From Phocaeicola coprophilus (GTDB taxonomy: Bacteria > Bacteroidota > Bacteroidia > Bacteroidales > Bacteroidaceae), in NCBI GenBank assembly GCA_016900015.1, contig JACJJM010000002.1, positions 186,001-250,000 on the forward strand: DNA of 64,000 bases, written 5' to 3'. Below are positions 2,905 to 42,782 of this stretch, piece after piece. Both the position numbers and the translations under genes were made by a program. Every line of letters starts with the position of its first letter. The stretch's first letter is position 1. The notes beneath the pieces were generated by a model. It was not told the DNA's origin. It ran no database searches and saw only the letters and a list, made by a program, of their open reading frames with translations.

Positions 2905-2949
2905 GAAGTTATTCCCCTTGCGGGGAAATGAAGGAAACGGGTAGGGAAA

Positions 2950-3408: not shown

Positions 3409-3441
3409 GATGCTTCAGGGTTGGGCGCGTGTCCGCGCGGA

Positions 3442-3777
3442 TTATTGAAGTTTCTCTTTCTCCTTGGCCGGGTTGCGGTAATATACCTTGCCTTCGATGT
3501 ATTCCTGTGTGGCGATTAAGGTCGGTTTGGGGAGTTTCTCGTAGTAGCGTGAGATTTCGATTTGTTCTCTGTTTTCAGACACTTCGTCCATGCTGTCGTT
3601 GTAGGATGCAAATTCTTGCAGCTTCTTGGAAAGGTCGTTTTTGATTTCCACGCTAATCTGGTTTGCACGTTTGCCGATGATGGCGACAGTTTCGTAGATA
3701 TTACCGGTGTCTTCACACAGTTCCATCAAGTCGCGGGTCACGGTCGTGGTGGGTGCATTTGTCTTTCTGTAATCCAT
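3442..3777 (-). CDS. rpoZ: DNA-directed RNA polymerase omega subunit, Bacteroidetes type
   Basis: This 111-residue protein contains the omega/RPB6-like core: TGNIYETVAIIGKRANQI followed by a charged helix. The C-terminal extension (LPKPTLIATQEYIEGKVYYR) is typical of Bacteroidetes omega proteins. Omega helps fold the beta' subunit and assemble RNA polymerase. It lies 26 bp downstream of bamD and upstream of the DUF4293 gene, all in one operon with a shared terminator. Confidence 0.88.
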   Translation of the reverse strand: MDYRKTNAPTTTVTRDLMELCEDTGNIYETVAIIGKRANQISVEIKNDLSKKLQEFASYNDSMDEVSENREQIEISRYYEKLPKPTLIATQEYIEGKVYYRNPAKEKEKLQ

Positions 3778-3803
3778 AATACTTTGTATCCTTTTATAAA
3801 CTA

Positions 3804-4613: not shown

Positions 4614-4628
4614 TCTTCAAAATATTGC

Positions 4629-4637
4629 GCAAATGTA
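4629..4637 (-). promoter_or_regulatory. -7 promoter box of the bamD operon
   Basis: TACATTTGC on the minus strand fits the Bacteroidetes TAnnTTTGC box; the implied start of transcription falls just ahead of the bamD ATG. No clear -33 TTTG. Confidence 0.6.
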
Positions 4638-4716
4638 CAGAGAAGTGCTGAGATACACAATGAATGCTTTTATTTTTAAACTATTTTTCGATGAGATACG
4701 GTATTTGCGTTGTCGT

Positions 4717-6747: not shown

Positions 6748-6786
6748 AACTCTGCGACTCCTTTCTTTAAATGGTCAATGGTGTGT

Positions 6787-6795
6787 GCAAAGGTA
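6787..6795 (-). promoter_or_regulatory. -7 promoter box of uvrB
   Basis: TACCTTTGC on the minus strand, 40 bp ahead of the uvrB ATG. No convincing -33 box, and no LexA-type palindrome noticed. Confidence 0.6.
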
Positions 6796-6841
6796 AGGAA
6801 AATAGCAGTAAAACCAATCACTAGACCAATGTGGGTTATCA

Positions 6842-6929
6842 GGCCCTTTACTCCGCGCTTCCTTGCCTTCCTTTCCGTCCAAGCACGGATACCTATCCGT
6901 GGTCGGGCGGATACCTGTCCGTGACAGGC
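6842..6929 (+). repeat. array A: four 22-bp units, family TwCCTdTCCGT
   Basis: Four units begin at 6842, 6864, 6886 and 6908, exactly 22 bp apart. Aligned cores are TTTACTCCGC, TTCCTTTCCGT, TACCTATCCGT and TACCTGTCCGT. The last two units each form a small hairpin (CGGAT...ATCCG type). The array lies between the SDR 3' end and the uvrB promoter. The same unit recurs at 23.05, 41.1 and 56.3 kb. Confidence 0.8.
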
Positions 6930-6994
6930 CACTTTTAATTAGGAAAGAAGGAGGCCTCGAGAAGTTTGTCGGGGCGTGAAGGAATGTCGCTCGT

Positions 6995-7807
6995 TCAGTC
7001 GTCATAGAAATAAGTGGCTGTCGCACCTCCATCCACCAGGAAGTCAGCTCCTGTGATAAAAGCTCCACGACTGCTCATCAACAGCTCTGCGACATTCGCC
7101 ACTTCGTCGGCTGTGCCGGGGCGGCCTGCTGGACATTTGGCAAACATGTTTTTGTAAAAATCGCCTCGTGGGCCGTTGAATTCGTCGAGAGCAAGCGGTG
7201 TGACGATGATGCCGGGCGAGATGGAGTTGATGCGTGCGCCTCGTTTACCCCATTTGACGGCCTCCGCCATAACGCGTTTTGTGTTGCACCGCTTGGCCAG
7301 TTGATAGGCATGGAGCGTGTCGCGGATATTCTGCGGTTGCAGGACATCCAGATCCAGCAGTTTTTCAGTCGGTGTGCAAGCCAGCAGGCGATTGGTTTTT
7401 TCTCCAAGGGCAGGCAGGCGGTGGCCTGACTGGCTGGAAATCGTTATGCCTGCTCCTTCAGGTTTGATGACTTTGCCCACTTCTTCCAACAGTACTGCCG
7501 TTCCGTATAAGTCCACTTTTAGAATCGTTTCTATGGATGCCTGCGAGGGAGAGACTCCTGCGGCATTGACCAGATATTTTATATCCCCAACTGTTTGTGC
7601 TTTTTCTATCAAGGCAAGGATGGAGGAGCGTGTGGCCAAATCCATTTCTACAGGCATCGCATCAAATCCTGCCTGATTCATCGTGTTTGCTACCAACATC
7701 GCGTTCTCCATGCGCCTGTCGCCGACGATTATCTTCATGCCGTATCCCATGCGCCGGGCTATTGCCATACCTATCTGTCCGGCTCCGGTAAGTATCATTA
7801 CGTCCAT
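6995..7807 (-). CDS. short-chain dehydrogenase/reductase
   Basis: This 270-residue SDR has the cofactor loop TGAGQIG near the N-terminus, NAAG (the structural NNAG motif with a change), the serine region SSQSG, and the catalytic YQLAK (Tyr-x3-Lys). The end reads GADFLVDGG, as in classical SDRs. A long insert between the serine and tyrosine regions (GHRLPALGEKTNRLL onward) is unusual for a 250-residue SDR. The substrate is unknown. The start lies 5 bp after the flavodoxin stop, so the two are co-transcribed under what was probably an AraC-controlled operon. Confidence 0.85.
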   Translation of the reverse strand: MDVMILTGAGQIGMAIARRMGYGMKIIVGDRRMENAMLVANTMNQAGFDAMPVEMDLATRSSILALIEKAQTVGDIKYLVNAAGVSPSQASIETILKVDLYGTAVLLEEVGKVIKPEGAGITISSQSGHRLPALGEKTNRLLACTPTEKLLDLDVLQPQNIRDTLHAYQLAKRCNTKRVMAEAVKWGKRGARINSISPGIIVTPLALDEFNGPRGDFYKNMFAKCPAGRPGTADEVANVAELLMSSRGAFITGADFLVDGGATATYFYDD

Positions 7808-7811
7808 AGCG

Positions 7812-8432
7812 TTAGAGTTTGAGTTTGCTTAACCAGTCCTTTACGCTCTCCTTGGCCTGAGCCTGCGCATTTTGTGCCGTAGCACCTCGTACAGCCAAGC
7901 CCTTCAGTATGGTTGTTCCTTTGCAGGCGGTTTTCAGTTTGTTTCCCGTGTCGGAGAGTCCGCTGCCTTCATGGGTACAGAATGGGATGACGGCTTTTCC
8001 CTGCCAGTGGTGTTTTCCGATGAACGTATAGACCGGCATCGGCATGTCTCCCCACCAGTTGGGATAACCGATAAAGATGATGTCATAATCCTCCACCGCC
8101 GCATCGTCTTTGATCGCTGGACGTGCTTGGGCGTTCAGTTCCCGTTTGGCGACTTCCGTACATTCTGTATAGTCATCGGGATAAGGAGTCTGTGGCTCGA
8201 TGTGGAAGAGGTCGCCCCTCGTTTCTGCGGCTATCATCTCGGCTATGATGTGGGTGTTACCTTTTTCGATGTGCCCTACGGCATAATTTTCGCCAGCCCG
8301 TGAGAAAAATGCCACGAGTGTTTTCTTTGCTTTCATGTTCTGTTCCTTTCTTTGATTTGCCTGCGCGTTTGTCGTGAATGAGAATGTGGCAAACAGCAGG
8401 GTGATGATTACTATAAATGTTCTTTTTTTCAT
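7812..8432 (-). CDS. exported flavodoxin family protein
   Basis: The chosen start (8432) gives 206 residues beginning MKKRTFIVIITLLF, a signal peptide or membrane anchor. A flavodoxin fold follows, with an FMN phosphate loop variant (FFSRAGENYAVG), YPNWWGDMP and the GSGLSDTG segment typical of the flavodoxin_4 family. Upstream in-frame codons translate a decayed neighbour, not a longer protein. Such proteins often sit with SDR, alpha/beta hydrolase and SnoaL genes in AraC-controlled operons. That context is visible here, but with the hydrolase and SnoaL genes broken. The redox partner is unknown. Confidence 0.82.
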   Translation of the reverse strand: MKKRTFIVIITLLFATFSFTTNAQANQRKEQNMKAKKTLVAFFSRAGENYAVGHIEKGNTHIIAEMIAAETRGDLFHIEPQTPYPDDYTECTEVAKRELNAQARPAIKDDAAVEDYDIIFIGYPNWWGDMPMPVYTFIGKHHWQGKAVIPFCTHEGSGLSDTGNKLKTACKGTTILKGLAVRGATAQNAQAQAKESVKDWLSKLKL

Positions 8433-8440
8433 GACTTCCC

Positions 8441-8828
8441 TTATGATAGGGTCCGCTTGAAAAATTCTGTCAGCTTCTTTATTGCGGGGCCGACCTTTGT
8501 TCCGCCAAACGGTAGGCATACAGCCCGGCTGACTGCTCCTTGACTGCTCCTTGACTGCTCCTTGACACTTCCGGCTGGATGATACTGAGGACGGCTGGAT
8601 AGCGTTTTTTCGAATCAAAGTCTTTTGGTAGGAACAGGTTGCCGACCAACACGATGCTGTTGCTCCGCAGAAATGAGACCTTGCGGACAATTACACCACT
8701 TGTCGTATCGATGGGGTGACTACGTAGCTTTCGGTTTGTGGAACTCTGGGCAGTCCGCTATTTTGTTGTGCCATTATACCCGACATGACGAGTAGCAAGG
8801 CAAATACGAATAAGATTATCTTCTTCAT
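8441..8828 (-). pseudogene. decayed alpha/beta hydrolase (dienelactone-hydrolase-like)
   Basis: An intact signal peptide (MKKIILFVFALLLVMSG) and LPRVPQTESYVVTPSIR are read until a stop at 8691. The next frame continues the family sequence VSFLRSNSIVLVGNLFLPKDFD, then GAVKEQSAGLYAYRLAEQ. After that the sequence jumps straight to the family C-terminus (AIKKLTEF...KRTLS) in a third frame. The gene therefore has at least two frameshifts and a large internal deletion that removes the catalytic residues. A tandem CTGCTCCTTGA repeat at about 8534-8570 marks one damaged spot. Confidence 0.8.
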
Positions 8829-8847
8829 ACTCTTTTTATATTTGATT

Positions 8848-9052
8848 TTAAGCTAACGGTGGCACGGACGAATAAATGAAGTGCTGTTCACGTTCGGCAA
8901 TCCACCAGCGGCCGTCCACGTTCTCATACTTGTCATAATAGCGCACGGCGTGCAGGGTCACGATAATAATCTTGGTTGTTTTTGTCTGATTCTATGGCAT
9001 AGCGGTCTACTAAATCCTTCAACGCCATGCGGTCTTCCATTTCTTGTTTCAT
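8848..9052 (-). pseudogene. decayed SnoaL-like (NTF2-fold) protein
   Basis: From the ATG at 9052 the frame reads MEDRMALKDLVDRYAIESD, the start of a SnoaL-like domain, and stops after about 40 codons. A different frame supplies the family C-terminus (HAVRYYDKYENVDGRWWIAE and REQHFIYS). The middle of the domain is missing. About 70 residues remain of a domain normally near 150. It sits first in the decayed operon, directly downstream of a good promoter. Confidence 0.75.
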
Positions 9053-9084
9053 ATTTCGTATCAATTTAGTTGTTAATTCCAAAT

Positions 9085-9229
9085 GCAAAGTTAGATGGGC
9101 TGTGACTGTCCATTGTTATATAAAACACAGACATGCTTCACATATCCCCTGATTTTTATCTTGGTTACAATCAGGATATTAGTTAATGTGATACAAAACA
9201 CGGATATGCTTCACGAAAACACAGATTTT
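9085..9229 (-). promoter_or_regulatory. promoter of the decayed operon with AraC-type direct repeats
   Basis: TAACTTTGC (9085-9093, minus strand) is a good -7 box for the SnoaL/hydrolase/flavodoxin/SDR operon. Upstream lie two direct repeats, AAAACACAGACATGCTTCAC at 9122-9141 and the 18/20 match at 9195-9214. They are 73 bp apart (about seven helical turns), and a partial third copy (AAAACACAGAT) starts at 9218. They lie between the operon and the divergent AraC gene, so they are probable AraC sites. Confidence 0.6.
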
Positions 9230-9291
9230 ATCAGCTCCTTATAAGAAAAAGTTGAGAATGTTTATACCTTTGTCATACCAATGAATGGTGT

Positions 9292-10197
9292 ATGGAAAAA
9301 GGATTATTAAATATAGAAACAGTGACAGAATATGACGACATGCTCGGTGTGGAAACTCTGCATCCGCAGGTCAGTGTGATAGACTTATCGAAAGCCAGGC
9401 CTATGCGTCACATGCGTCATACGTTCAGCTTTTATGTCGTATTTCTGAAAGATGAGAAAAACTGCGATTTGATTTATGGTCGCCAGCGATATGATTATCA
9501 AAAAGGCTCGGTCGTCTGTCTGGCACCGGGGCAAGTCATCGGCATTGAAGACACGGGCGAGGATTTCCAGCCGCAAGGCTATGCGTTGTGTTTTCACCCG
9601 GACCTTATACGCGGTACGAATCTCGGACGTAATATCAAGGAATATACGTTCTTCTCCTATGATGTCAACGAGGCTTTGCATCTGTCGGAACGGGAACGTC
9701 ATACTTTTATAGACTGTTTGATGAAGATAGAGGAGGAGCTTCAGCATTCCATAGACCGAATGAGCAAACGTTTGATAGCTACGAACATTGAGTTGTTGCT
9801 CAATTATTGTCTGCGTTTCTATGAACGTCAATTTATTACAAGACAGAATGCCAACCGTGATATATTGAACCGCTTTGAGGCATTGCTCGACTACTATTTC
9901 ACGGGAGACAATGCCTTACAAAAGGGACTGCCTACTGTAAAATACTGTGCCGGCGAACTTTGCCTTTCGCCCAACTACTTCGGTGATTTGATTAAGCGGG
10001 AAACGGGAAAGACAGCTTTGGAGTGGATTCAGGATAAAATTGTCGGCATGGCTAAAGAGCGGCTGCTTCTTCCGTCAAACACTATCAGCCAAATAGCATA
10101 CAGCCTTGGTTTCCAATATCCACAGCATTTTACAAGGGTGTTCAAGAAAGTGACAGGGATGACACCCAATGAATATAGAGGAGGTAATAGGCAATAA
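9292..10197 (+). CDS. AraC family transcriptional regulator
   Basis: This 301-residue protein has an N-terminal cupin-like sensing half and a C-terminal double helix-turn-helix. The first HTH lies around VKYCAGELCLSPNYFGDLIKR and the second around TISQIAYSLGFQYPQHFTRVFKK, ending in the usual GMTPNEYR. It is divergent from the flavodoxin/SDR operon, whose first two genes are decayed, and direct repeats that look like its operators lie between them. A weak -7 box (TACCTTTG, 9265-9272) precedes the ATG. No inducer can be inferred. Confidence 0.92.
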   Translation: MEKGLLNIETVTEYDDMLGVETLHPQVSVIDLSKARPMRHMRHTFSFYVVFLKDEKNCDLIYGRQRYDYQKGSVVCLAPGQVIGIEDTGEDFQPQGYALCFHPDLIRGTNLGRNIKEYTFFSYDVNEALHLSERERHTFIDCLMKIEEELQHSIDRMSKRLIATNIELLLNYCLRFYERQFITRQNANRDILNRFEALLDYYFTGDNALQKGLPTVKYCAGELCLSPNYFGDLIKRETGKTALEWIQDKIVGMAKERLLLPSNTISQIAYSLGFQYPQHFTRVFKKVTGMTPNEYRGGNRQ

Positions 10198-10409
10198 GTT
10201 TCTTCGTAGGGGAGAGAAGTATATAGAACACCGGTCGTGTAAAAAGCGTAAACGGCAGGTAATGAGTGGAAAACAATCCTGTTCTTGCACCGGTCTCTTA
10301 AGTTGTTGTTTTCGTTTTTGGTGGAATTTGTGATTTCCGTTGAGCTCTCTTATTCTCAATTCTTATTGAGTAAATTGAGTTTTACGGAGGTTTTTCCATA
10401 GATTCTTTG

Positions 10410-10418
10410 TAAATTTGC
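10410..10418 (+). promoter_or_regulatory. -7 promoter box of pyrG-yidC
   Basis: TAAATTTGC, 55 bp ahead of the pyrG start; -33 box not evident. A small CTCAAT...ATTGAG hairpin at about 10355-10370 lies just upstream and may end the AraC transcript, though without a T-run. Confidence 0.55.
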
Positions 10419-10473
10419 AACCTTGAAATCCTATATGGTAAAAGAAATACAAACTAATTAAAATCATATAACT

Positions 10474-12072
10474 GTGGCAGAAACAAAGTATATCTTCGTT
10501 ACAGGTGGTGTAGCATCTTCCTTAGGTAAAGGCATTATCTCATCATCGATTGGTAAATTACTTCAAGCAAGAGGTTACAATGTTACAATCCAGAAATTCG
10601 ACCCTTATATCAACATCGACCCGGGTACGCTGAACCCTTATGAGCATGGTGAATGCTATGTGACTGTGGATGGGCATGAGGCTGATTTGGACTTGGGCCA
10701 TTATGAACGTTTCTTGGGGATTCAGACGACAAAAGCCAACAATATTACGACCGGGCGTATTTACAAGAGTGTGATAGACAAAGAACGTCGTGGTGATTAT
10801 TTGGGCAAGACCATTCAAATCATCCCTCACATCACGGATGAAATCAAGCGTAACGTAAAACTGTTGGGCAATAAGTATAAGTTCGACTTCGTGATTACGG
10901 AAATCGGCGGAACAGTGGGTGACATCGAGTCGCTGCCGTATCTGGAGAGTATCCGCCAGTTGAAACGTGAGTTGGGACGCAATGCCCTGTGTGTGCATTT
11001 GACTTATGTGCCTTATCTGGCTGCTGCCGGAGAGCTGAAAACAAAGCCGACGCAACACTCTGTGAAAGAATTGCAGTCAGTGGGTATACAGCCGGACATC
11101 CTGGTGCTTCGCACGGAACATGAGTTGAGTACGAACTTGAAGAAAAAAGTTGCTTTGTTCTGCAATGTGGATGAATCAGCTGTAATCGAATCGCTGGATA
11201 TGCCTTCCATCTACGAAGTGCCCTTGCGAATGCAGGCACAGAACCTGGATTCGATAATCCTCGAGAAAGTGGGCTTGCCCGTGGGTGAGACTCCGACATT
11301 GGGTCCGTGGCGCGACTTCCTCAACCGCAGGAACAATGCGACTGAGACTGTAAACATTGGTTTGGTCGGCAAATATGATTTGCAGGACGCTTACAAATCT
11401 ATCCGCGAAGCCCTCTCACATGCAGCGACCTACAACGACCGTAAGGCTGAGATACATTTCATCAATAGTGAAAAACTAACAGACGAAAACATCGCCGATG
11501 CGCTCAAGGGCATGGATGGCATCATCATCTGTCCGGGATTTGGACAGCGCGGCATTGAAGGGAAGTTTGTCGCTGCCAAATATGCTCGTATGCACAATCT
11601 TCCGACTTTCGGCATCTGCCTCGGCATGCAGTGCATGGCCATCGAGTTTGCACGTGACGTGCTTGGATATGCCGATGCCAACTCCCGTGAGATGGATGAG
11701 AAGACGCCTCACAATGTGATAGACATCATGGAGGAACAGAAGTCCATCACGAACATGGGAGGCACCATGCGTCTGGGAGCATACGACTGCATCCTCGACC
11801 AGAATTCCAAGACATTCGAAGCCTACGGACAAGTGCACATCCAGGAGCGCCATCGCCATCGCTACGAGTTCAATAATTTCTACAAAGCCGAATTCGAGAA
11901 AGCCGGCATGCGTTGCGTGGGTGTCAATCCGGAATCGGACTTGGTGGAAATCATTGAGATTCCGGGACTGAAGTGGTATATTGGCACACAGTTCCATCCG
12001 GAATACAGCAGTACGGTGTTGAAGCCGCATCCCTTGTTCATGTCGTTTATTAAAGCAGCTATTGATAAATAA
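10474..12072 (+). CDS. pyrG: CTP synthase
   Basis: This 532-residue enzyme is full length. The N-terminal amidoligase domain holds FVTGGVASSLGKG (8-20), the KFDPYINIDPGTLNP nucleotide site and EIGGTVGDIES. The C-terminal glutamine amidotransferase domain has the nucleophile Cys382 in GICLGMQ and the His/Glu pair in FHPEYSS near 514. It makes CTP from UTP, ATP and glutamine. The start codon is GTG, fixed by the conserved MAETKYIFVTGG start. yidC follows after 20 bp in the same operon. Confidence 0.97.
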   Translation: MAETKYIFVTGGVASSLGKGIISSSIGKLLQARGYNVTIQKFDPYINIDPGTLNPYEHGECYVTVDGHEADLDLGHYERFLGIQTTKANNITTGRIYKSVIDKERRGDYLGKTIQIIPHITDEIKRNVKLLGNKYKFDFVITEIGGTVGDIESLPYLESIRQLKRELGRNALCVHLTYVPYLAAAGELKTKPTQHSVKELQSVGIQPDILVLRTEHELSTNLKKKVALFCNVDESAVIESLDMPSIYEVPLRMQAQNLDSIILEKVGLPVGETPTLGPWRDFLNRRNNATETVNIGLVGKYDLQDAYKSIREALSHAATYNDRKAEIHFINSEKLTDENIADALKGMDGIIICPGFGQRGIEGKFVAAKYARMHNLPTFGICLGMQCMAIEFARDVLGYADANSREMDEKTPHNVIDIMEEQKSITNMGGTMRLGAYDCILDQNSKTFEAYGQVHIQERHRHRYEFNNFYKAEFEKAGMRCVGVNPESDLVEIIEIPGLKWYIGTQFHPEYSSTVLKPHPLFMSFIKAAIDK

Positions 12073-12092
12073 TATATAAGGTATAGAAAAGA

Positions 12093-13961
12093 ATGGAGAA
12101 AAATACGCTTATCGGGTTTGTCTTGATTGGTGCAGTGCTGATAGGATTTAGCGTGTTCAATCGTCCGAGCGCTGAAGAACAGGCGCAGATGAAGCATTTC
12201 CAAGATTCTATTCAGGCTTTGGTGGATGAGCAGGAAGCCAAGCAACTGGAACAACAGAAGCTGGCCCAACAGCAGGCCGCAGCGCAGGATTCCACGTCGT
12301 TGCTCTTTTATGCTCACCAGGGGCAGGAGTCCGTCGTCACCTTGCAAAACGAGCTGGTCGAACTGAAACTGACCACAAAGGGCGGACGGGTGAAGTCGGC
12401 CAAACTGAAGGAATACAACGGGCAGGACCATCAGCCGCTTGTGCTCTTTGACGGTGAAGACGCTGCACTGAGTTTCGCATTCAATGGCAAAACGGAGAAT
12501 ATCCGCACAGAGGAACTTTATTTCGTACCGGAAAATGTGACCGACAGTACGGTGACCATGCGCTTGCCCATGAATGGAGGCGGTCATCTGGACTTCAACT
12601 ACAAGCTCCGTCCCGACAGTTATATGCTCGATTTTACGGTGCAGGCTCAAGGCATGGAGAACTATTTTGCCCCTGCTATAAAGACTGTGGACATCCACTG
12701 GAGCCAGCGTGCACGGCAGTTGGAGAAAGGATTCAGCTTTGAGAACCGTTTCACCTCGTTGTCATATAAGTTGAAGGACAAAGGCAGCGATTACCTGAGC
12801 GAGACGAAGGAGGAGACCGTGGAAGAGGCAACACCGATGGACTGGATTGCTTTCAAGAATCAGTTCTTCTCCTGTGTGTTCATTGCCGGACAAGATTTCA
12901 ACGGGACGACCTTGAAGTCTACGCCTCAGGCAGAGGGTAGCGGCTACCTGAAAGATTATGATGCGACGATGACGACCTTCTTCGACCCGACAGGAGGACA
13001 GCCGACGCAGATGCAATTCTATTTCGGTCCGAATCACTTCAAAACCTTACAGGCAACCAATGACTTGGCCGTCAACGGTAAAGATCTCGAAATGGAAGAT
13101 CTCGTCTACCTCGGATGGCCGCTCTTCCGCTGGATTAACCGATGGTTTACCATCAACCTTTTCGACTGGCTTTCCGGTTGGGGACTGAACATGGGCATTG
13201 TCCTGCTTCTGATGACCATCATCGTGAAAGCTGTCGTCTTTCCGGCTACCTACAAGTCCTACATGTCGTCGGCCAAGATGCGTGTGCTGAAACCGTATGT
13301 CGATGAAATCAACAAGAAGTATCCGAAGCCTGAAGACGCGATGAAGAAGCAGCAGGAGACGATGGCCCTTTACAGCCGCTACGGCGTCAGCCCGATGGGA
13401 GGCTGCTTGCCGATGCTTATCCAGATGCCGGTGTTCATCGCGCTGTTCAACTTTGTGCCGAACGCCATCGAGCTTCGCCAGCAGAGCTTCCTCTGGGCGA
13501 CTGACCTTTCGACCTACGACGACATCATCCATTGGGGTGTCCACATCCCGCTTTTGGGCGAGCATTTGAGCCTCTTCTGTCTGCTGTTCAGCTTGAGCAA
13601 CATCATCAATACGTTCATCATGATGAAGCAGCAGGACACGGGCGCCAACCCGCAGATGGCTGCCATGAAATGGATGATGTATCTCATGCCCGTCATGTTC
13701 ATCTTCATCTTCAACAGCTATTCCTCCGGTTTGAACTATTATTACTTCATATCCGGCCTCATCAGCATCCTTATCATGATTGTCCTCCGCAAGACGACTG
13801 ACGAGAAGGCTCTGCTGGCCAAATTGGAGGCGCGCATGCAGGCCAACAAGAACAATCCGAAGAAGCGTAGTAGCATGATGGAGAAACTCGCTGCCTTGCA
13901 AAAGGAGCAGGAACGCATGATGCGCGAGCGTGAGGAGCGTGAACGCGGAAAGCGCCGCTGA
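12093..13961 (+). CDS. yidC: membrane protein insertase YidC
   Basis: This 622-residue protein has an N-terminal membrane helix ([17 protein letters not shown]), a Gln-rich linker, then a large periplasmic beta-domain. The conserved insertase core follows from about residue 360, with five helices and [21 protein letters not shown] and the later [12 protein letters not shown]. The basic tail ([13 protein letters not shown] to the end) would bind ribosomes. It inserts inner-membrane proteins with or without Sec. It shares the pyrG transcript, and a terminator follows its stop. Confidence 0.96.
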
Positions 13962-13990
13962 CGTTTTTTTTGACTGCTATCTATAATGAA

Positions 13991-14044
13991 AGAAGCATGG
14001 ATTGCCGTGGAGATGTCTCCCGGCAGTTCATGCTTCTTCTTTTT
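13991..14044 (+). terminator. intrinsic terminator of pyrG-yidC
   Basis: AGAAGCATGGATTGCCG pairs with CGGCAGTTCATGCTTCT over 17 bp including G-U pairs, followed by TCTTTTT. Confidence 0.85.
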
Positions 14045-14067
14045 GTGCCTTTGTCGTGTTGCCGCAG

Positions 14068-14231
14068 GATAGGCACTCCGTGGCAGAGAGATACGTGTCT
14101 GTCTGTTCTCCGATGTACATCTCAGCGTTCTTCGATGTACATCCCAGCATTCTCGGATGTACATCCCAGCATACTCCGATGTACATCTCGGAATGGATTG
14201 ATACGTATCTCCTCATGACGGACATGCGTCT
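14068..14231. repeat. array B: palindromic decamers every 22 bp
   Basis: GATACGTGTC starts at 14090, GATGTACATC at 14112, 14134, 14156 and 14178, and GATACGTATC at 14200. All are exactly 22 bp apart. Weaker units flank them (GATAGGCACT at 14068, GACATGCGTC at 14221). The 12-bp spacers are alike but not identical (CCAGCATTCTCG type). The array lies between convergent yidC and bioD. Confidence 0.85.
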
Positions 14232-14267
14232 GTCTACGCCACGCAGTGCAGTACGCCGCTTCTGCGG

Positions 14268-14909
14268 TCAGAGGCAGGGGATGAGCCGAAACTCTGTCTC
14301 GGGGAAATGCGCGGCGAGATAGTCGCGGATGTATTCCTGCGTGTCGCGCTGGATGATTTTGTCCTCTTCGGGTGGGAAGAGGTTGTAAGCCACGGTATGG
14401 AGTCGGATGCCCCGCCGCTGGATGGCTTCCAGGCTGAGAAGCGTGTGGTTGATGCTACCCAGTCGCCCGGACGTGACGAGGATGAGGGGGTAGCCGTGCC
14501 GTGCCACGTAGTCGATGGTCAGCAGGCTGCGTGTGAGGGGAACCATCAGGCCGCCCGCACCTTCGAGCAGGACAGTGTCGAAGCGGCGAGAGAGTTCTTT
14601 CGTCGCCTCTTCGATGCGTGCGAAGTCGATGGGTCTGTGGTCGATTTCCTCAGCCAGGTGCGGGGAGCAGGGATAGGTGTAGATTTCCGGCATCGTGAGC
14701 CGTTCGCGGTCTTCGAGCAGCATCCCGGTGCCCATGATTCGGCGGTGGAGTTCGATGTCTTCTGATGAGTCGGTGTTGCCCGTCTGAATCAGTTTTTGAG
14801 TGATGGTGCGGATGCCGGCCTTGTTCCACTCGCGTGCGAGGAAGCCGGTGGCATAGCTTTTTCCGATGTTCGTGTCAATGCCGCTCACGAAGAATACGTT
14901 TTCTTTCAT
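14268..14909 (-). CDS. bioD: dethiobiotin synthetase
   Basis: This 213-residue protein has the P-loop variant GIDTNIGKS near residue 10, the EGAGGLMVPL motif and LVTSGRLGSINHTLLSLEAI, all typical of BioD. It closes the ureido ring by ATP-dependent carboxylation of DAPA to dethiobiotin. It is the last gene of the biotin operon and overlaps bioC by 4 bp. Confidence 0.93.
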   Translation of the reverse strand: MKENVFFVSGIDTNIGKSYATGFLAREWNKAGIRTITQKLIQTGNTDSSEDIELHRRIMGTGMLLEDRERLTMPEIYTYPCSPHLAEEIDHRPIDFARIEEATKELSRRFDTVLLEGAGGLMVPLTRSLLTIDYVARHGYPLILVTSGRLGSINHTLLSLEAIQRRGIRLHTVAYNLFPPEEDKIIQRDTQEYIRDYLAAHFPETEFRLIPCL

Positions 14910-20274: not shown

Positions 20275-20371
20275 TTTGAACCATCACCAATAACTGCCTA
20301 TCTTTGCAATGTGTTTTTCATAGTATTAGATTTAAGGTTAACAAAGGTTGGGCTCAGCGGAGCCCTTTTTT
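20275..20371 (+). ncRNA. small RNA cassette, copy 1 (promoter, ~60-nt RNA, terminator)
   Basis: TTTG (20275-20278), 20 bp, then TATCTTTGC (20299-20307) form a full promoter. The predicted RNA starts near 20313 and runs through CATAGTATTAGATTTAAGG to the terminator hairpin GGGCTC-AGCG-GAGCCC with TTTTTT. A copy with the same 30-nt body but a different terminator stem lies at 42652-42753. No open reading frame is present. I recall a paralogous sRNA family in Bacteroides with this look (FopS), but cannot verify it here. Confidence 0.75.
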
Positions 20372-20513
20372 ATTGTCCCAATTCGTAATTTGAAATAGCA
20401 AAGTCTTTCATATTTCTTCCCTTTATTTTTATCTGTACGCTTGTGTTCGGAGCATGGAACCAGTTTTTAGGTTTTGTGTATTGGGAATATAAAGTCTATA
20501 TGTTTGCGACTTA

Positions 20514-23256: not shown

Positions 23257-23461
23257 TTAAACCCAAATCGGTCATTAGACCGCTCAAATGTTCTTTTTTC
23301 CAACTAAAGTAAAGCTCTTCGGTTATCTTGCCCACTTCTGCCAGCGTCTTGCTCCCCGCCTTGCCTCGACGTAGCCCGCTACGCCTTTTGCAAGTCGAAA
23401 AGCAATACGCAAGACATGAGTGGACAATCTACCCAAAGTCTAATGACCGATTTGGGTTTAA
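23257..23461. repeat. palindromic element 1 (~205 bp inverted-repeat element)
   Basis: A 24-nt left end (23257-23280) and right end (23438-23461) are perfect reverse complements, starting TTAAACCCAAATCGG. The inside also folds back imperfectly and is centred on CGTAGCCCGCTACG. There is no ORF. It abuts element 2 directly and resembles element 3 at 42.8 kb. Confidence 0.75.
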
Positions 23462-23656
23462 GAAGCTGTTTTGAATTTCTACAAAAAGTTTTTCCCTACT
23501 TGATGGTATCCGTTTTTCATGTATGCTTTGGGTGATTTTTTGGTCCTTTTCGTTCCTGTTCTTCGTCAGATAGCCCGCTATCTTCCTCATCACAGAAGCA
23601 AAAATCACTCAAAAACTCATCCCAAATCATCACACGATAAATTCAAAACAGCTTCT
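23461..23656. repeat. palindromic element 2 (~196 bp inverted-repeat element)
   Basis: Ends AGAAGCTGTTTTGAATTT (23461-23478) and its exact complement (23639-23656) enclose a folded interior centred on GATAGCCCGCTATC. It has the same architecture and centre as element 1 but different ends. Confidence 0.7.
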
Positions 23657-23834
23657 AAAAATACTGAATCTTTGATGATGTGTTGAAATGGGGGAAGGGC
23701 AAACACGAAAGCACAAAGATGAAGAGTTTATGCCCTTTATATCTTTGCGTTTTCATGTTTGGTTTGACATAAGAAGGCTCAACTCAAAATATGCAAAAGA
23801 ATAAGTGTCAAGGCTTTAAATATGTTAAGACTGA
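23657..23834. other. intergenic segment with a long imperfect hairpin
   Basis: 23700-23720 pairs with 23741-23761 over 21 positions if G-U pairs are allowed. TATCTTTGC inside the right arm resembles a plus-strand -7 box, but no gene follows. It may act as a terminator region for the island operon. Confidence 0.4.
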
Positions 23835-24293
23835 TTATAAAGTCTTGTATCTGGCCATCCAGTGTGCTGCTTTTTCGTCCTCAAACGCACTCCGGTCTAT
23901 GTCCGAGTAATCGTCGAAGGTATGCAATATGGCGTAATTCCCATCTTCATGATGTTGAGCCCAGGTGAGTTCAGCAAGGGGAGAGGTGGTCAGTTGTCCT
24001 ATGTGATGCAGTTCATACGGGTCTCCGTTTTCGTCGTGGGGCGGATACCCTTCGCCCATCAGGTCACTGTTGCTCCATCCGCGCCAGTTTTCTCCATATT
24101 CCCTGATCCACCATTCCGGCATCAGATAGTCCGGGTCAATCCGAGGTTGAATCAATGCCGGTTTTCCGTTTACGATCATTTCTTTCAGTCCGGCTTTCAT
24201 GTAGATGCGTGCTTCTTCTTCCGTCCGGATAGCATTGACCAAAGCGTCTGACCATCCGGTCATTTGCTGAATCTTTTTCCTAAAATCTTCCAT
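23835..24293 (-). CDS. stand-alone LHH-type HNH/endonuclease VII family nuclease
   Basis: This 152-residue protein starts at MEDFRKK, preceded by AAGGA; an earlier ATG at 24329 is less likely. TGWSDALVNAIRTEEEARIY and NGKPALIQ lead into PPHDENGDPYELHHIGQ (LHH at 95-97), SPLAELTWAQHH and ILH, then SDIDRSAFEDEKAAHW. This order is the LHH toxin domain of the HNH/ENDO VII superfamily, normally the C-terminus of large secreted polymorphic toxins. Here there is no delivery domain and no recognised immunity gene beside it. It is last in the AAA+ island. Confidence 0.75.
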   Translation of the reverse strand: MEDFRKKIQQMTGWSDALVNAIRTEEEARIYMKAGLKEMIVNGKPALIQPRIDPDYLMPEWWIREYGENWRGWSNSDLMGEGYPPHDENGDPYELHHIGQLTTSPLAELTWAQHHEDGNYAILHTFDDYSDIDRSAFEDEKAAHWMARYKTL

Positions 24294-24379
24294 GTCTTGT
24301 TCCTTTTTTAAGTTGTTTTGCTTGTGCAAATGTAGTCGGGTGTTACGCCAAAACGTTGCACAAGCAAAACAAAAAACAT

Positions 24380-24601
24380 TTAATCTAACTTCTTAAACTC
24401 GAAGTCGTTTACAGAGCAACATGCTTTCTTGTAATCAAAATTGTAGAGCCGCATGTATGCTTCCTGCACTTCCTTTGCTCCATTATAAAAAGGAGTAGAG
24501 GTGTGTGACTGTGTTGTGACGGTGATCACCATTTCCGGTGTAAGCACTGTCCCGTTCGTGCGCTTGATGCGCTTCGGGGTGATTTGGAATACTTTTGACA
24601 T
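24380..24601 (-). CDS. conserved small protein of the AAA+ island
   Basis: This 73-residue protein (MSKVFQITPKRIKRTNGTVL...) starts 6 bp after the AAA+ ATPase stop, so it is translationally linked. It is mostly beta-strand by pattern, with TPEMVITVTTQSHTS and a pair of cysteines in KKACCSVNDFEF. No known domain is recognised. It may be a substrate or adaptor of the ATPase, judged only from position. Confidence 0.6.
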   Translation of the reverse strand: MSKVFQITPKRIKRTNGTVLTPEMVITVTTQSHTSTPFYNGAKEVQEAYMRLYNFDYKKACCSVNDFEFKKLD

Positions 24602-24607
24602 GATACT

Positions 24608-26143
24608 TTATTTATTTGAGGTATTAGTTATTTTTCCTGTTGTAGCATCTTTGAAGCTGTTTTCGGCAAAGGCTTTCTTCATGTTTTCTATCTGTTGCTT
24701 GCACGATTTGAAAATGCTGACCGTTCTCTTGGCTATTTCTATCAGTTTGTCTGTGGAAAGCGATGTTTTGTTTTCTAAAAAACTTTCTTCGATGGCTTCA
24801 TTGACAACCGATTCAATATCAGCACCATTAAAGCCTGTGGTCGCCGTTGCTAATTGTTGATAGTCTATTGTTCCCTTTACGCATCCTTTACGTTCCTTTT
24901 TATTTAGGTGTACAGTAAAAATGGCTTTTCGCTCTTCAGAATTTGGAAGATTCACACAGAAAATTTCATCGAAGCGTCCTTTACGTTTCAATTCTGGAGG
25001 GAGAGCATCGGCATTATTGGCGGTGGCTATGACATATACACTGCTGGTTTTATCTTGCATCCACGAAAGGAAGTAACCGAACATGCGAGTCATGATGTCG
25101 TTGTTTCCACCAACGCCCGAAAAGCCTTTTTCTATTTCATCAATCCATAGTACACAGGGAGCGGCAGCTTCGGCAATGCGGATGGCTTTCCGCAGGTTAG
25201 CTTCGCTTTCGCCTACATATTTCCCCATCATGCTGCCCATATCCAATTTTAATAATGGAGACTCGAATAAGGCAGCTGAAGCCTTGGCACAAAGCGACTT
25301 TCCGCAACCGGGCATTCCCACAATAAATACGCCTTTGGGTACAGCCACCCCATACCGACGTGCATCGGCTATTCGTTTTACTATTTGTGCTTTATTGGTC
25401 AGGTATTTCTTTAAAGCATCCATACCGCCAATGCTGTCCAAATTTTCCGGCGTATCAATCAGTTCCAGCAATCCGGATTTTTTAACCATTTGTTTCTTCT
25501 GTCGGAGAATCATTTCGGTATCTTCCGCACTGAGCGAACCATTGCTACTCATTGCCATGTCCAGCATTCGGTCTATCTCGAAAGCTGTCATACCTTTCAG
25601 TGAAGGCATCAGTTTTTCACGGTCTTCTTCTTTAAACTTATTTTTGTCGTAGAAGTTCACCTCTATATGTTCATCAATCAAGCGATTGATTTCTTCTTCG
25701 TTTGGAAAATCTATTTCCAAAAAAGAAACATATTTCTCTATTTCTTGTGGTACACGTAGCACGGATGATACAATGATGATCGTCGTGTCGTATTCCCGGT
25801 CGTATAAACGACGTTGTGACATCAATGCCAACAGCGTTTTTACTTTCGGTTCTTCGATAAAGTCTTGGATTTCTCTTAAGACTAAATATTTTTCTTTGGC
25901 TTCTTCCTCATTGTATTTTTCTTGCAGAAAGTTTTCCAATGTCTGCTTTTCGCCAAATCCTTTCGGAAACCTTGTGGTGAAATCCGTCGTACCTGTTGCC
26001 GGATTCCATTCGAATACTTTTTTCCCAGCCACAACTTGCCGGATAAGTTCATCCATTCGTACAAAGTCGTAGTCATGTATATAAATGATAGGTGTGTTGA
26101 CATCTATCATCTTTTGGAAGGAGGATATTACAGTGCTATTCAT
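24608..26143 (-). CDS. Ycf46-like AAA+ ATPase
   Basis: This protein has 511 residues from the first ATG (26143). The N-terminal third resembles the degenerate AAA half of Ycf46-type proteins (TPIIYIHDYDFVRMDELI; DTTIIIVSSVLRVP). The active AAA domain follows with Walker A GMPGCGKS (278-285 counting two residues upstream), the pore loop GKYVGESE, Walker B CVLWIDEIEKG, sensor ATANN and the finger region RKGRFDE. It overlaps the preceding gene by 8 bp. Such ATPases remodel or unfold partner proteins; the partner here is unknown. Confidence 0.85.
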   Translation of the reverse strand: MNSTVISSFQKMIDVNTPIIYIHDYDFVRMDELIRQVVAGKKVFEWNPATGTTDFTTRFPKGFGEKQTLENFLQEKYNEEEAKEKYLVLREIQDFIEEPKVKTLLALMSQRRLYDREYDTTIIIVSSVLRVPQEIEKYVSFLEIDFPNEEEINRLIDEHIEVNFYDKNKFKEEDREKLMPSLKGMTAFEIDRMLDMAMSSNGSLSAEDTEMILRQKKQMVKKSGLLELIDTPENLDSIGGMDALKKYLTNKAQIVKRIADARRYGVAVPKGVFIVGMPGCGKSLCAKASAALFESPLLKLDMGSMMGKYVGESEANLRKAIRIAEAAAPCVLWIDEIEKGFSGVGGNNDIMTRMFGYFLSWMQDKTSSVYVIATANNADALPPELKRKGRFDEIFCVNLPNSEERKAIFTVHLNKKERKGCVKGTIDYQQLATATTGFNGADIESVVNEAIEESFLENKTSLSTDKLIEIAKRTVSIFKSCKQQIENMKKAFAENSFKDATTGKITNTSNK

Positions 26144-27308
26144 AATCAAATAAATGGTCTTTTATAAAAGTAAGTTGGTGTTGAAAAGGTATTCTTCTAA
26201 AGTCTACGCCATCTATCGTTTGGACCTTATATAGCATATAGTTTGCTAGTCTGTAATTTTTTATTTCAGTAAAGATAGCTTCTGCACGTGTTCTGTCCGA
26301 GATATGCGTATAAATAAGTCCAATTACAAACTGTTTCTCATTATTCAATATATCATATTTGTCATTTTTGAACATTTCAAGAGCTTCATCTAAAGCCTTT
26401 TGAAAGCCCAAATGTTCAGAAATCCATCCAATACGGTATATTCGAGTGATAAACTTAACAATACGCATTTCTCTATTGTCCATATTATCCTTATTCGTAG
26501 GTTGTATGATATTGTAGCTTCTAAAATTATTATCCCAAGCTTTATCAATCCATGATTTTAGCTTCTTTATATCGACATTATTAAACCTAATATTTGTCTT
26601 TTTGTCTTTTTCTGCTTCTATTACGTCGAATTTGTTTATTGTTTCTTTTTTTATGGATTCATAAATTTCCATGATGATTTGATAAGCCTCCTTATTTCCT
26701 AAACGTGCAGCTTTATCAATCAATTCAAAGCCAAGTTTTTTTCTTTCTCGGTAGCTATAATTTTCTATATGCGCATCATCTTGATATAATATCGTACCTA
26801 ATATGTAAGTGACTTCAGGATCTTCTTTAGTACAATTTTTGTGTAAAGCAGAAAATATTGCATACCAATCTAATTCTGGGCATTTAAGTTCTTTTTTATG
26901 TTTGTATAATTGTTTGATAATATTGATACTTTCTGGATTATTTGAACTTTTTGTTATATAGCATAAAAGATGCTTGCCGTTATTTCTAAATGATGAGGAA
27001 TTCAACCATGAAACAATAAGTTTAAATACATTGTCAATACTGTAAAGTTGTAAATATTCAGCAAAGAAAACTTGCATGAATTCCATAACACCATTTGGAG
27101 TATGCAAACTTGATGGATTAAAATTATTTACTGTCTCGGCCAACTCATTATCTCCTTGTTGTTTTAACCATCTGACCAATCGTCCATCCAACAACGGTTG
27201 AATATCGCTAATGTTGAAGTTACGCTTCAACGAATCAAGTGAAGAGTGTTCTTCTCCGCCTGATTTGATGCGAATCTTTACGGGCTTTGCTTTGGGTATA
27301 AGTTTCAT
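26136..27308 (-). CDS. alpha-helical protein of the AAA+ island
   Basis: This 390-residue protein is AT-rich and Asn/Lys-rich, unlike its housekeeping neighbours, which suggests transfer. Its start holds SSLDSLKRNFNISDIQPLLD then GRLVRWLKQQGDNELAE, a motif I have seen at the head of various uncharacterised bacterial proteins. The rest is helical, with Sel1/TPR-like stretches (KKLGFELIDKAARLGNKEA). It begins 3 bp after the next upstream gene and overlaps the ATPase start. The function is unknown; a scaffold or sensor is possible. Confidence 0.65.
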   Translation of the reverse strand: MKLIPKAKPVKIRIKSGGEEHSSLDSLKRNFNISDIQPLLDGRLVRWLKQQGDNELAETVNNFNPSSLHTPNGVMEFMQVFFAEYLQLYSIDNVFKLIVSWLNSSSFRNNGKHLLCYITKSSNNPESINIIKQLYKHKKELKCPELDWYAIFSALHKNCTKEDPEVTYILGTILYQDDAHIENYSYRERKKLGFELIDKAARLGNKEAYQIIMEIYESIKKETINKFDVIEAEKDKKTNIRFNNVDIKKLKSWIDKAWDNNFRSYNIIQPTNKDNMDNREMRIVKFITRIYRIGWISEHLGFQKALDEALEMFKNDKYDILNNEKQFVIGLIYTHISDRTRAEAIFTEIKNYRLANYMLYKVQTIDGVDFRRIPFQHQLTFIKDHLFDYE

Positions 27309-27311
27309 AGC

Positions 27312-27980
27312 TTATGCTTTTAAGAAGTTCAGCACTTTTCTTGCCACAGACTTTACCTTAGTCGCAACTTGTTTCACAATCGGTTTAGCAGCTTGCGCCA
27401 AAGTACGTATGCCTTTTCTTACTATTACTTTAGTAGCAACAGTTATATATCTTTCTGCATGCTTAATTACAGGAACAACGGTTATGGCAGGTGGGTAAAC
27501 TTTTGTCATTACCATACAAAGTTTATCCAGTATAATCGGCATTCCTTTTTCTATCACTTTGTCTGCTATAGCTACAGCTCTCACCGCTACACGGTCTACC
27601 AAAACATCTACCGCTTCAATGGAATCAAGTTCCCCCGTAGCTGTTTTATAAGCAACTTTCATCTGTGTCAAACTTTCGTCTACGACACTCGCTATTGCTT
27701 CGGGCGACTCCGGCACTTCAAACGGAAGCAACCCTTTGCTCTTTGCAATGACAATGGATGTTGCAAACAATTTTTTCAAGATAGCTTCTTTCTTGTCATT
27801 AATAGGCAAATCAAGAAACTCTTTAACGCATTTAAACTCACGAATCAAAGGAAGCTCTTCCGCCGTCAGTTCGTTTCCCAGTAGCAACGATTGCAATGCG
27901 GTCATTTGTGTAGCTTCTCTCTCGAACTGATTACCAAACTCGTTTCGTCCGTAATCTTCATTATATTCAGCAAATTTCAT
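27312..27980 (-). CDS. hypothetical protein of the AAA+ island
   Basis: The protein has 222 residues from MKFAEYNEDYG (27980). The N-terminal half is acidic and helical (LTAEELPLIREFKCVKEF). The C-terminal half is Val/Ala/Lys-rich with repeating helices (KHAERYITVATKVIVRKG, KPIVKQVATKVKSVARKV). This may be amphipathic and bind membrane or nucleic acid. No known family is recognised. It is 7 bp after the first island gene and 3 bp before the next. Confidence 0.6.
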   Translation of the reverse strand: MKFAEYNEDYGRNEFGNQFEREATQMTALQSLLLGNELTAEELPLIREFKCVKEFLDLPINDKKEAILKKLFATSIVIAKSKGLLPFEVPESPEAIASVVDESLTQMKVAYKTATGELDSIEAVDVLVDRVAVRAVAIADKVIEKGMPIILDKLCMVMTKVYPPAITVVPVIKHAERYITVATKVIVRKGIRTLAQAAKPIVKQVATKVKSVARKVLNFLKA

Positions 27981-27987
27981 AGGGCAA

Positions 27988-28332
27988 TCATTCTTTAGCG
28001 GTTGTGTCTTCAATCATCTTTTCGTTCGTTTCAGAAATGGCTGAAACGATTTGAGCCTTTTCTTCTTCTGAACGTCCTTCGGTAATTTTGTCAATTTCTT
28101 CTAGCATCCAGCGTTTTCGAGATTTCCCTTCGGATTTTGCATTTTCTAATGACGTTGCTTTGTCTGTAAATGTATCTATGTAAGTTATAATATCTTTCAG
28201 CAAAGCAATTTGTTCTTCTAGCAAGTTCCATTCTTTACACTTTTCGTTAATCAGTGTATCTATATTTTGCGTTGGATTGCTTTCGTAACTCTCTAATAGA
28301 GAAGTTAGGATAGTGTCAAATGTTTGTTCCAT
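27988..28332 (-). CDS. small acidic coiled-coil protein, first gene of the AAA+ island
   Basis: This 114-residue, strongly helical and acidic protein (LLEEQIALLKDIITYIDTF; EEEKAQIVSAISETNEKM) is probably a coiled coil. No family is recognised. It is the promoter-proximal gene of the island. Its upstream region is AT-rich and has no consensus TAnnTTTGC box that I can find. Confidence 0.55.
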   Translation of the reverse strand: MEQTFDTILTSLLESYESNPTQNIDTLINEKCKEWNLLEEQIALLKDIITYIDTFTDKATSLENAKSEGKSRKRWMLEEIDKITEGRSEEEKAQIVSAISETNEKMIEDTTAKE

Positions 28333-28411: not shown

Positions 28412-28765
28412 TTACAAAGCCGGAGCATGCCCGCCTTTATTACTTCCTTTCGGATGATTCACGCATAGTCCGCCCACCATCACTTGGATGCTGGGGAACT
28501 TCTTGCCGCAATATTTGCAGGTGTATTCTGATTTTTCACTGCCTTCGTAGAGTTTATGATGGCCTTTGTTGGTACCGTCTGGATGACGGGGGCAAGTGGC
28601 GGATGTCAGTTGACGCACGGAGGGGAATTTGTGTCCGCAATATTCGCAATAGTAATGGGTGGATGGAGTCATAGGCTTTTCTCTTTCGGGGTTGATGCTC
28701 GAAGTGAAAAGCATGTACAGGCAGGCTGCCATGCTTATGGTTATTAACGTTTTCATGTTTTTCAT
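28412..28765 (-). CDS. exported protein with two Cys/His zinc-finger-like repeats
   Basis: An N-terminal signal (MKNMKTLITISMAACLYML) is followed by two repeats: YYCEYCGHKFPSVRQL...CPRHPDGTNKG and YTCKYCGKKFPSIQVM...CVNHPKGSNKG. Each has CxxC, then a Cys and His, as in C2H2/zinc-ribbon sites. Zinc fingers behind a signal peptide are unusual. The start is uncertain: 28771, 28765 or 28756 are all possible. It stands alone between the island and the divergent HTH gene. Confidence 0.65.
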   Translation of the reverse strand: MKNMKTLITISMAACLYMLFTSSINPEREKPMTPSTHYYCEYCGHKFPSVRQLTSATCPRHPDGTNKGHHKLYEGSEKSEYTCKYCGKKFPSIQVMVGGLCVNHPKGSNKGGHAPAL

Positions 28766-28882
28766 GTTCATCCTTATATAGTGTGTATTCATTTATGCGT
28801 TAAAAGTAGCAGTTTAGCATCATATAGATGTTATTTGAATTGGTTCAAAGCGGTTCACGCATCGTAGAAATATCTTTTTTAG

Positions 28883-28891
28883 TACATTTGC
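28883..28891 (+). promoter_or_regulatory. -7 promoter box of the HTH gene
   Basis: TACATTTGC ends 20 bp before the ATG at 28912. It rules out the longer upstream reading frame from 28828. Confidence 0.55.
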
Positions 28892-28911
28892 AAGCTGTAG
28901 AACATATCGAA

Positions 28912-29508
28912 ATGAATAAAGAAGAACTTATAGGCTTGTTGAAGACCAAAGTGGAGGAAAAAATGGGGCGGTCGTTGGTGACACCGACGGACTTTAACCG
29001 TTTGAGTTTGCAAATGCAGCAAGAAATGGGTGAATCCATCAGTGTATCAACTGTGAAACGCGTGTGGAATTATGTGTCTTCACATCATCATTCGAGTGTG
29101 GACACATTGGCCTGTCTGGCCCGTTTTGTGGGATATAGGGACTGGGCCGGCTTTGTCGATGCATGCAGCGATGGCGGAGGAGAAGAGGAATCTGCATTCC
29201 TTTCGGAGCCTCAAATCCGGACAGATGAGCTGTCTCAAGGGGATATGTTGGAATTCAGTTGGGCGCCAGACCGGTTTTGCCGTGTGATGTATTTGGGAGA
29301 CAATAGATTTCAAGTATTGGAGTCGCTTCACGGGAAATTGAGAGACGGCGACACCTTTCAAGCTACGATGTTTTCATTAGGCTTGCCACTGATTGTGACA
29401 GGGCTTCATCGGAATGGTGTGTTTTTGGGTGCATATATAGCCGGACGTAGAGGTGGCATTTATCAGTTGAACCGTTTGTCGGGGAAGAATCATGCTGATG
29501 TGGAATGA
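28912..29508 (+). CDS. Bacteroidales HTH-domain protein
   Basis: This is a 198-residue protein. The first 90 residues (MNKEELIGLLKTKVEEKMG; DFNRLSLQMQQEMGESISVSTVKRVWNYV) form a helix-turn-helix region seen in many Bacteroidales proteins, where the STLKRxWgY-like helix is the recognition helix. The second half is beta-rich (GDMLEFSWAPDRFCRVMYLGDNRFQVLE), perhaps a ligand or protein-binding barrel. It is monocistronic upstream of xpt-gph. The regulatory target is unknown. Confidence 0.7.
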   Translation: MNKEELIGLLKTKVEEKMGRSLVTPTDFNRLSLQMQQEMGESISVSTVKRVWNYVSSHHHSSVDTLACLARFVGYRDWAGFVDACSDGGGEEESAFLSEPQIRTDELSQGDMLEFSWAPDRFCRVMYLGDNRFQVLESLHGKLRDGDTFQATMFSLGLPLIVTGLHRNGVFLGAYIAGRRGGIYQLNRLSGKNHADVE

Positions 29509-42651: not shown

Positions 42652-42753
42652 TTTGCAGGCAATCAAATCTGTCCTTACATTTGCACTGTGTTTTTCATAG
42701 TATTAGATTTAAGGTTAAGTAAAAGGTTGGGTCAAGGCGTTGACCCTTTTTTT
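42652..42753 (+). ncRNA. small RNA cassette, copy 2 (promoter, ~60-nt RNA, terminator)
   Basis: TTTG (42652-42655), 20 bp, TACATTTGC (42676-42684) form a full promoter. The RNA (from about 42690) carries the same body as copy 1 (CATAGTATTAGATTTAAGG) and ends in GGGTCAA-GGCG-TTGACCC with seven T. Between copies the terminator stem differs in sequence but keeps pairing, which supports a real RNA. Confidence 0.75.
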
Positions 42754-42782
42754 ATGCCACATACCCAACAAGGGTATTTCTT

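Follow-up and report, generated by a model that had tools for sequence, protein, structure and literature searches.

NTPase-driven conflict systems and the present locus

Several described systems built on a nucleoside triphosphatase (NTPase) or a nuclease toxin come close to the locus analyzed here. Some of the MoxR-vWA NTP-dependent ternary conflict systems carry FtsH-type AAA+ ATPases and Sel1 repeats (PMC7159879), LeoABC is linked to vesicle release (PMC4159319), and the Tox-LHH nuclease domain of polymorphic toxins has been defined together with its motif (N, LHH, E, H, H, W), with solo toxin cassettes described alongside (PMC3482391). Here, we analyze a locus in a 64,000-nucleotide stretch of Phocaeicola coprophilus DNA (the window; contig JACJJM010000002.1 of assembly GCA_016900015.1, positions 186,001 to 250,000; genome G000, 3.79 Mb in 254 contigs), in which an AAA+ ATPase and three proteins designated p114, p233, and p390 are encoded between the gene of a zinc-ribbon protein, zn126, and the genes of DUF6140 and a stand-alone LHH nuclease. 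We interpret the locus, with a probability of roughly one-half, as a modular conflict island directed against parasites, in which a constant frame holds an exchangeable NTPase module.

The island resembles each of the described systems in part. Like the MoxR-vWA ternary systems, it combines an AAA+ engine with helical partners and a variable component, but Pfam reveals no MoxR or vWA gene among its genes, and the paper describing the ternary systems mentions neither Ycf46 nor LHH (PMC7159879). With IetAS, it shares a CDC48/FtsH-like AAA+ ATPase (IetA model, E = 6e−29), but the score of 94 bits against a cut-off of 510 reflects generic AAA similarity, and no IetS protease is found among the neighbors. 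Homologues of LeoBC and LeoA fill the middle of a sister island (L063; L numbers denote compared loci and G numbers genomes), between zn126 and LHH, where the window has the AAA core and no GTPase. The LHH domain is that of the polymorphic toxins, with all motif residues present; in contrast to those toxins, it stands alone at the end of an NTPase island, without a delivery part or SUKH partner and with a putative regulatory element of its own. HerA-nuclease operons with LHH and SUKH genes (NZ_CP035852, G271, and G313) are likewise NTPase operons with a distal LHH effector gene, but they encode HerA (plus a dynamin in Escherichia coli) instead of the AAA core, and SUKH is present. We file the locus as a variant of NTPase-driven conflict systems that is a member of none of IetAS, LeoABC, and the MoxR-vWA ternary systems.

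A constant frame with an autonomous nuclease gene

A first-pass annotation of the window had described a six-gene unit. The six genes are present, but they are not a single operon: the unit consists of three layers, namely the AAA core, p390 with its exchangeable part, and the outer parts zn126, DUF6140, and LHH. The zn126 gene, which that annotation overlooked, lies on the same strand and belongs to the island as its seventh gene (an internal methionine is the probable start, giving about 86 amino acids). Among the 399 genomes of the family, 17 encode zn126, and seven genomes encode both zn126 and LHH (hypergeometric test, P = 2.5e−6, uncorrected for kinship). The gene heads islands with differing middles (L063, L064, L066/L032, L067, and L109). 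Between zn126 and DUF6140/LHH are found the AAA core in the window, the Leo homologues in L063 (E about 1e−89), a bPH-like protein in L066, two unknown proteins (k328 and k336) in L064, and another unknown protein (j389) in L067. A genome of the same genus, G008, lacks LHH but encodes zn126, dynamin-like GTPases, m700, a c16/DUF4112-like gene product, and DUF6140. Its DNA is 78% identical to that of the window in DUF6140 and 72% identical in zn126, although the intervening genes differ.

DUF6140 is encoded in many related islands, either adjoining LHH or upstream of the core. Its AlphaFold2 model is a small beta-rich domain (predicted local distance difference test score [pLDDT], 88.6) with no significant match in the PDB. 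As a candidate for a dedicated LHH immunity protein, DUF6140 was rejected: it is common without LHH, occurs in multiple copies, and was not found beside LHH in L063 and L065. The genomic site of the island is itself a variable stretch. In another genome of the genus, G010, the sugar-kinase genes located at 33 to 40 kb in the window are close to the glutamine synthetase gene that is found left of the island, and the genes to either side of the island lie 280 kb from each other in G008.

The first-pass annotation also suggested a single six-protein machine whose ATPase complex gates the nuclease. LHH and the core are indeed adjacent in the window and in its nearest relative, L005. However, in the other five of the seven close stand-alone LHH loci (L063, L064, L065, L066 [the same as L032], and L067), the core is absent and LHH is either solitary or accompanied by unrelated modules, and of about 20 loci with the core only two also have LHH. 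Across the family, LHH relatives are present in 19 genomes and the AAA set (E ≤ 1e−90) in 10, and only the window's own genome has both. The independent occurrence of LHH, which that annotation itself had regarded as decisive against gating, is thus what the loci display; together with the separate promoter-like element ahead of LHH, it makes a single gated machine very improbable. The autonomy of LHH from the AAA core is firm on these comparisons. In one of the loci, L066, fragments of a p114-like gene and of the tail of AAA lie among other genes and look like the deletion scar of a core.

The candidate element lies in the 86-bp gap ahead of LHH. A perfect 17-bp inverted repeat containing a promoter-like −7 box is located there, which means that LHH should not simply be read as the final gene of a single operon. 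Shuffled versions of the gap never reach an inverted repeat of even 12 bp (0 of 2,000), and the RNA folding z score is −4.7. Both L005 and L064 retain the element, with G-C replaced by A-T in the arm as a compensatory change, and its exact pattern occurs in two of the 399 genomes, each time ahead of LHH. The middle module of L064 differs from that of the window, which ties the element to LHH and not to the AAA core. It marks a subgroup, since no such element was found before the LHH genes of L032, L063, L065, or L067. A −33 box at the usual spacing is not evident, and we therefore treat the promoter call as putative: the element may be a promoter/operator or a hairpin that places LHH under separate control. 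No inverted copy was seen, and the spacer seems short for an invertible promoter; a search of the island against Rfam gave no match.

The LHH alignment has invariant residues N75, L95-H96-H97, H114, H124, and W145, with E108 near-invariant, which match the Tox-LHH motif (PMC3482391). The LHH profile found no match in the PDB. LHH could be a solo toxin cassette left over from polymorphic-toxin systems and placed by chance beside an unrelated AAA core. The entire 152-residue protein is similar to the extreme C terminus of longer LHH proteins and begins just before the toxin region, with no delivery or repeat region on the same protein; in G377, LHH is the C-terminal domain of a type VI-like toxin accompanied by SUKH, beside type VI secretion-like genes. 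A promoter-like element of its own and the solo cassettes described with polymorphic toxins also fit this explanation. Yet no secretion or polymorphic-toxin gene is located near the window LHH, and the seven intact close copies, 72 to 84% identical across genera, are mostly found behind zn126 or DUF6140 islands. Relatives of LHH, too, stand at the ends of NTPase operons. The more distant LHH genes close m730/DUF4112 operons that include a WYL gene (L072) or HerA operons with SUKH immunity genes downstream (L068 and L073), and the E. coli conjugative plasmid NZ_CP035852 (L116, positions 1 to 5842) has the run dynamin-hypothetical-HerA-LHH-SUKH, detected in 1 of 5,426 complete E. coli genomes. 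Chance placement of a leftover cassette is unlikely on this evidence, and if the conflict-island reading holds, a polymorphic-toxin nuclease domain has apparently been reused as an internal effector.

Two side observations concern LHH relatives. The LHH and SUKH genes of the E. coli plasmid had no PADLOC match, and its HerA had generic HerA-type matches only. In G035 (L075, positions 6397 to 6817), an LHH pseudogene with stops lies behind DUF6140, a 724-residue protein, and a DUF4112-like protein; an island can thus outlast the decay of its LHH gene.

A four-gene core with a two-part subunit

A scan with the AAA protein identified 28 loci. The gene order p114-p233-p390-AAA, which is complete in the window, is kept in about 18 other Bacteroidales loci (some of which are the same contig fetched twice). 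DUF6140 is usually nearby, and the further genes vary (bPH-like, DUF533/TerB-like, Arf/Ras-like GTPase, glycosylase-like as judged by eye, and WYL regulator). These comparisons indicate that the four genes are a real core, one without a named family or described function. The distribution of the core is patchy and accessory: of the 10 family genomes counted above, three besides that of the window stand at about 65% AAA identity. By direct reading of the sequence, the AAA motifs are intact (Walker A GMPGCGKS, Walker B VLWIDE, and the Arg-finger region), and the best PDB relatives are p97/VCP (CDC48) proteins (E = 4e−55).

The most variable member of the core is p390. Its 19 members align well over the first ~65 residues only, with invariant P9, R13, E20, W47, and L48. 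The motif of this conserved domain in p390 is K-P-V-R-I-R-I ... G-R-L-x-R-W-L. The remainder is helical in the window and varies in length and kind among homologues, where it includes TPR, Sel1 (E = 4e−28), and FGE-sulfatase (E = 6e−47) domains and, in betaproteobacteria, pentapeptide repeats (E down to 2e−37). Between the window and L005, identity is 96% for AAA, 93% for DUF6140, and 84% for LHH, but 31% for the comparable part of p390, and the DNA match of 84% ends at the p390/AAA junction. Because L005 is cut at the contig end and its p390 is incomplete, this exchange counts as one example. The middle genes had been called AT-rich in the first-pass annotation; the AT richness is real but confined to p390 from ~codon 60, with a G+C content of 39% before that point and 29% after it. 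The N-terminal part of p390 exceeds the C-terminal part in G+C content in 17 of 18 loci, as does AAA in 17 of 17, with a contribution from amino-acid composition; the fall in third-position G+C content is not seen in every locus. Exchange would be only occasional, since in three pairs of loci (L006/L007, L008/L009, and L019/L020) divergence is gradual, with p390 fastest or among the fastest. The simplest reading of these data is that a C-terminal cassette is exchanged behind a fixed, presumptive docking domain.

The two small core proteins are helical. The p114 gene is conserved in about 20 loci, and its product resembles a stretch of longer p233 homologues (L117/L118), with a common G-K/R-S-x3-W-L/M motif recognized by eye; p114 and p233 may be a split protein. 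The AlphaFold2 model of p233 is all helix (pLDDT of 74, moderate). Its last helix of ~60 residues is long, positively charged, and amphipathic by hydrophobic moments, and distant homologues have glycine-zipper-like C termini, which suggests that p233 is probably membrane associated. In a profile search, p233 matched only alpha-synuclein, weakly (E values of 0.3 to 0.7), and we take these matches as amphipathic-helix similarity.

Relatives of the core are carried on plasmids. On an Exiguobacterium plasmid, p233-, p390-, and AAA-like genes lie directly downstream of McrB/McrC-type genes (p233 hidden Markov model [HMM], E = 2e−19; p390 N-terminal domain, E = 2e−9). On a Microcystis plasmid, a p233-like gene lies close to AAA (p233 HMM, E = 7e−22), and Klebsiella and Enterobacter plasmids carry AAA. 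On a Klebsiella conjugative plasmid (L119, positions 3200 to 12978), vWA, p233-like, AAA, DUF1887 CARF, PP2C, kinase, and further AAA genes form one run, reminiscent of a large, core-related conflict system. Neighboring DUF1257 and DUF2997 genes go with AAA relatives ~31 to 39% identical to the island protein (Bacillus and Paenarthrobacter plasmids), a different, more distant branch; Pfam found neither family near the island AAA, so the island lacks the Ycf46/DUF1257 gene set.

These observations bear on the suggestion in the first-pass annotation of an undescribed defense or conflict system, of which the ATPase-gated nuclease lacks support and the patchy, accessory, conflict-type island is supported. 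Defense is the best reading because of the patchiness, the plasmid carriage, the McrBC, vWA/CARF/PP2C/kinase, and Leo-dynamin associations, and the nuclease/SUKH relatives. We propose that the constant frame of zn126, DUF6140, and LHH with its own switch would hold whichever NTPase module is present, here p114-p233-p390-AAA+. Recognition of an invader or of a signal of cell damage would fall to the variable C-terminal part of p390, and docking on the AAA+ ring or on p233 to its conserved N-terminal domain; the ATPase would remodel a helical p114/p233 assembly, probably at the membrane, so that the invader is blocked or the cell is stopped. LHH would be a separately controlled DNA-cutting effector that serves the module present. 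Core conservation, the two-part p390, module exchange, and LHH autonomy are firm as sequence results.

A serious rival, which we nevertheless consider rather improbable, is a membrane-maintenance or envelope-stress island, in which the AAA core would act like dynamins and PH-like proteins in stress-related membrane remodeling, none of them having an anti-phage role, and LHH would be a bystander. Sister modules with dynamin-like, bPH-like, and DUF4112 or DUF1232 proteins, the basic amphipathic C-terminal helix of p233, and the tie of LeoABC to vesicle release (PMC4159319) are as this rival would have them. It accords poorly with the very patchy distribution, since maintenance genes would be kept more evenly, and with the plasmid and conflict-gene neighbors, the swapped p390 payload, and a nuclease present in several versions. 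Several points nonetheless weigh against a conflict island. Most AAA-core loci lack LHH and zn126; Pfam shows no SUKH immunity gene among the island genes, and no immunity gene for LHH was identified. The p233 model has no significant match in the PDB, PADLOC returned generic AAA similarity only for the core, and searches for LHH and AAA in viral contigs and for LHH in phage records gave no matches. Dynamin and PH-like partners also fit a non-defense membrane role, and the variable repeat domains could be substrates or effectors instead of sensors.

If the conflict-island reading is true, the locus represents a previously undescribed type of AAA+ conflict module, one of whose subunits can be swapped and which ranges from Bacteroidales to plasmids of several phyla, and its constant-frame, variable-middle layout is a route to further modules. 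A broader conjecture, which we offer tentatively, is that of a cross-phylum AAA+ immune platform. In it, p390 would be a socketed receptor, with one fixed part plugged into the ATPase and a recognition cassette that can be exchanged, and in Bacteroidales the platform would be swappable with dynamin or other NTPase modules within a frame supplying a separately switched DNase effector.

Layout of the island and minor observations

The six genes of the first-pass annotation lie on a single strand with spacings of 7, 3, −8, 6, and 86 bp, exactly as it reported with the given starts. Pfam bears out its LHH domain (PF14411, E = 2e−17) and AAA+ ATPase (PF00004, E = 6e−29) and identifies its conserved 73-residue protein as DUF6140 (PF19637, E = 7e−10); p114, p233, and p390 have no Pfam family above the cut-off.

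Table 1. Features of the island, in window coordinates, from zn126 to LHH
Feature	Position	Strand	Remarks
zn126, double zinc-ribbon protein	28412..28792	−	Open reading frame of 126 amino acids; zinc-ribbon similarities below cut-off
p114, small helical/coiled-coil protein	27988..28332	−	First AAA-core gene; no Pfam family
p233, all-helical protein, 222 amino acids	27312..27980	−	Alignment and AlphaFold2 model
p390, two-part protein	26136..27308	−	N-terminal domain, 27308-27114; AT-rich C-terminal part, 27113-26136
AAA+ ATPase, 511 amino acids	24608..26143	−	CDC48/FtsH-like AAA with extra N-terminal domain; Pfam AAA and AAA_lid_3
DUF6140, beta-rich protein, 73 amino acids	24380..24601	−	PF19637
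Perfect 17-bp inverted repeat with 26-bp spacer, ahead of LHH	24313..24372	−	Holds TAnnTTTG −7 box at 24334-24327
LHH, stand-alone HNH/ENDO VII nuclease, 152 amino acids	23835..24293	−	PF14411; active-site motif intact

The repeats that the first-pass annotation placed downstream of the island are present, as inverted repeats (23257 to 23461 and 23457 to 23660), but they were rejected as island ends. They are two adjacent copies of a dispersed element of ~205 bp, with perfect or near-perfect inverted-repeat arms and about 40 matches genome-wide; the element resembles miniature inverted-repeat transposable elements or repetitive extragenic palindromic sequences. No tRNA or integrase gene adjoins the island. 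A short repeat occurs at two places in the window (20294 to 20378 and 42674 to 42755) and also in the DNA of G007 and G010 (85 to 94% identity).

Other AAA loci were seen in passing. Elsewhere in the same genome, a further pair of AAA proteins (24% and 35% identity to that of the island) is encoded within 9 kb, together with large unnamed proteins (L122, contig C104, positions 5865 to 14698), and this may be another AAA conflict locus. A second Bacteroidales branch (L081 to L086), ~40% identical, is linked to a 1,300-residue superfamily-1 helicase and to genes for proteins of 800 and 210 residues; it adjoins XRE-like regulators and in some loci also integrase-like genes, and is possibly another mobile conflict operon. 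Beside the island, a divergent gene on the plus strand (28828 to 29508) encodes a 226-residue protein without a Pfam match. Look-alikes of this protein, with an SVSTLKRLWGY-type segment, are found near the LHH loci L069 and L121 and possibly belong to a common Bacteroidota regulator-like family.

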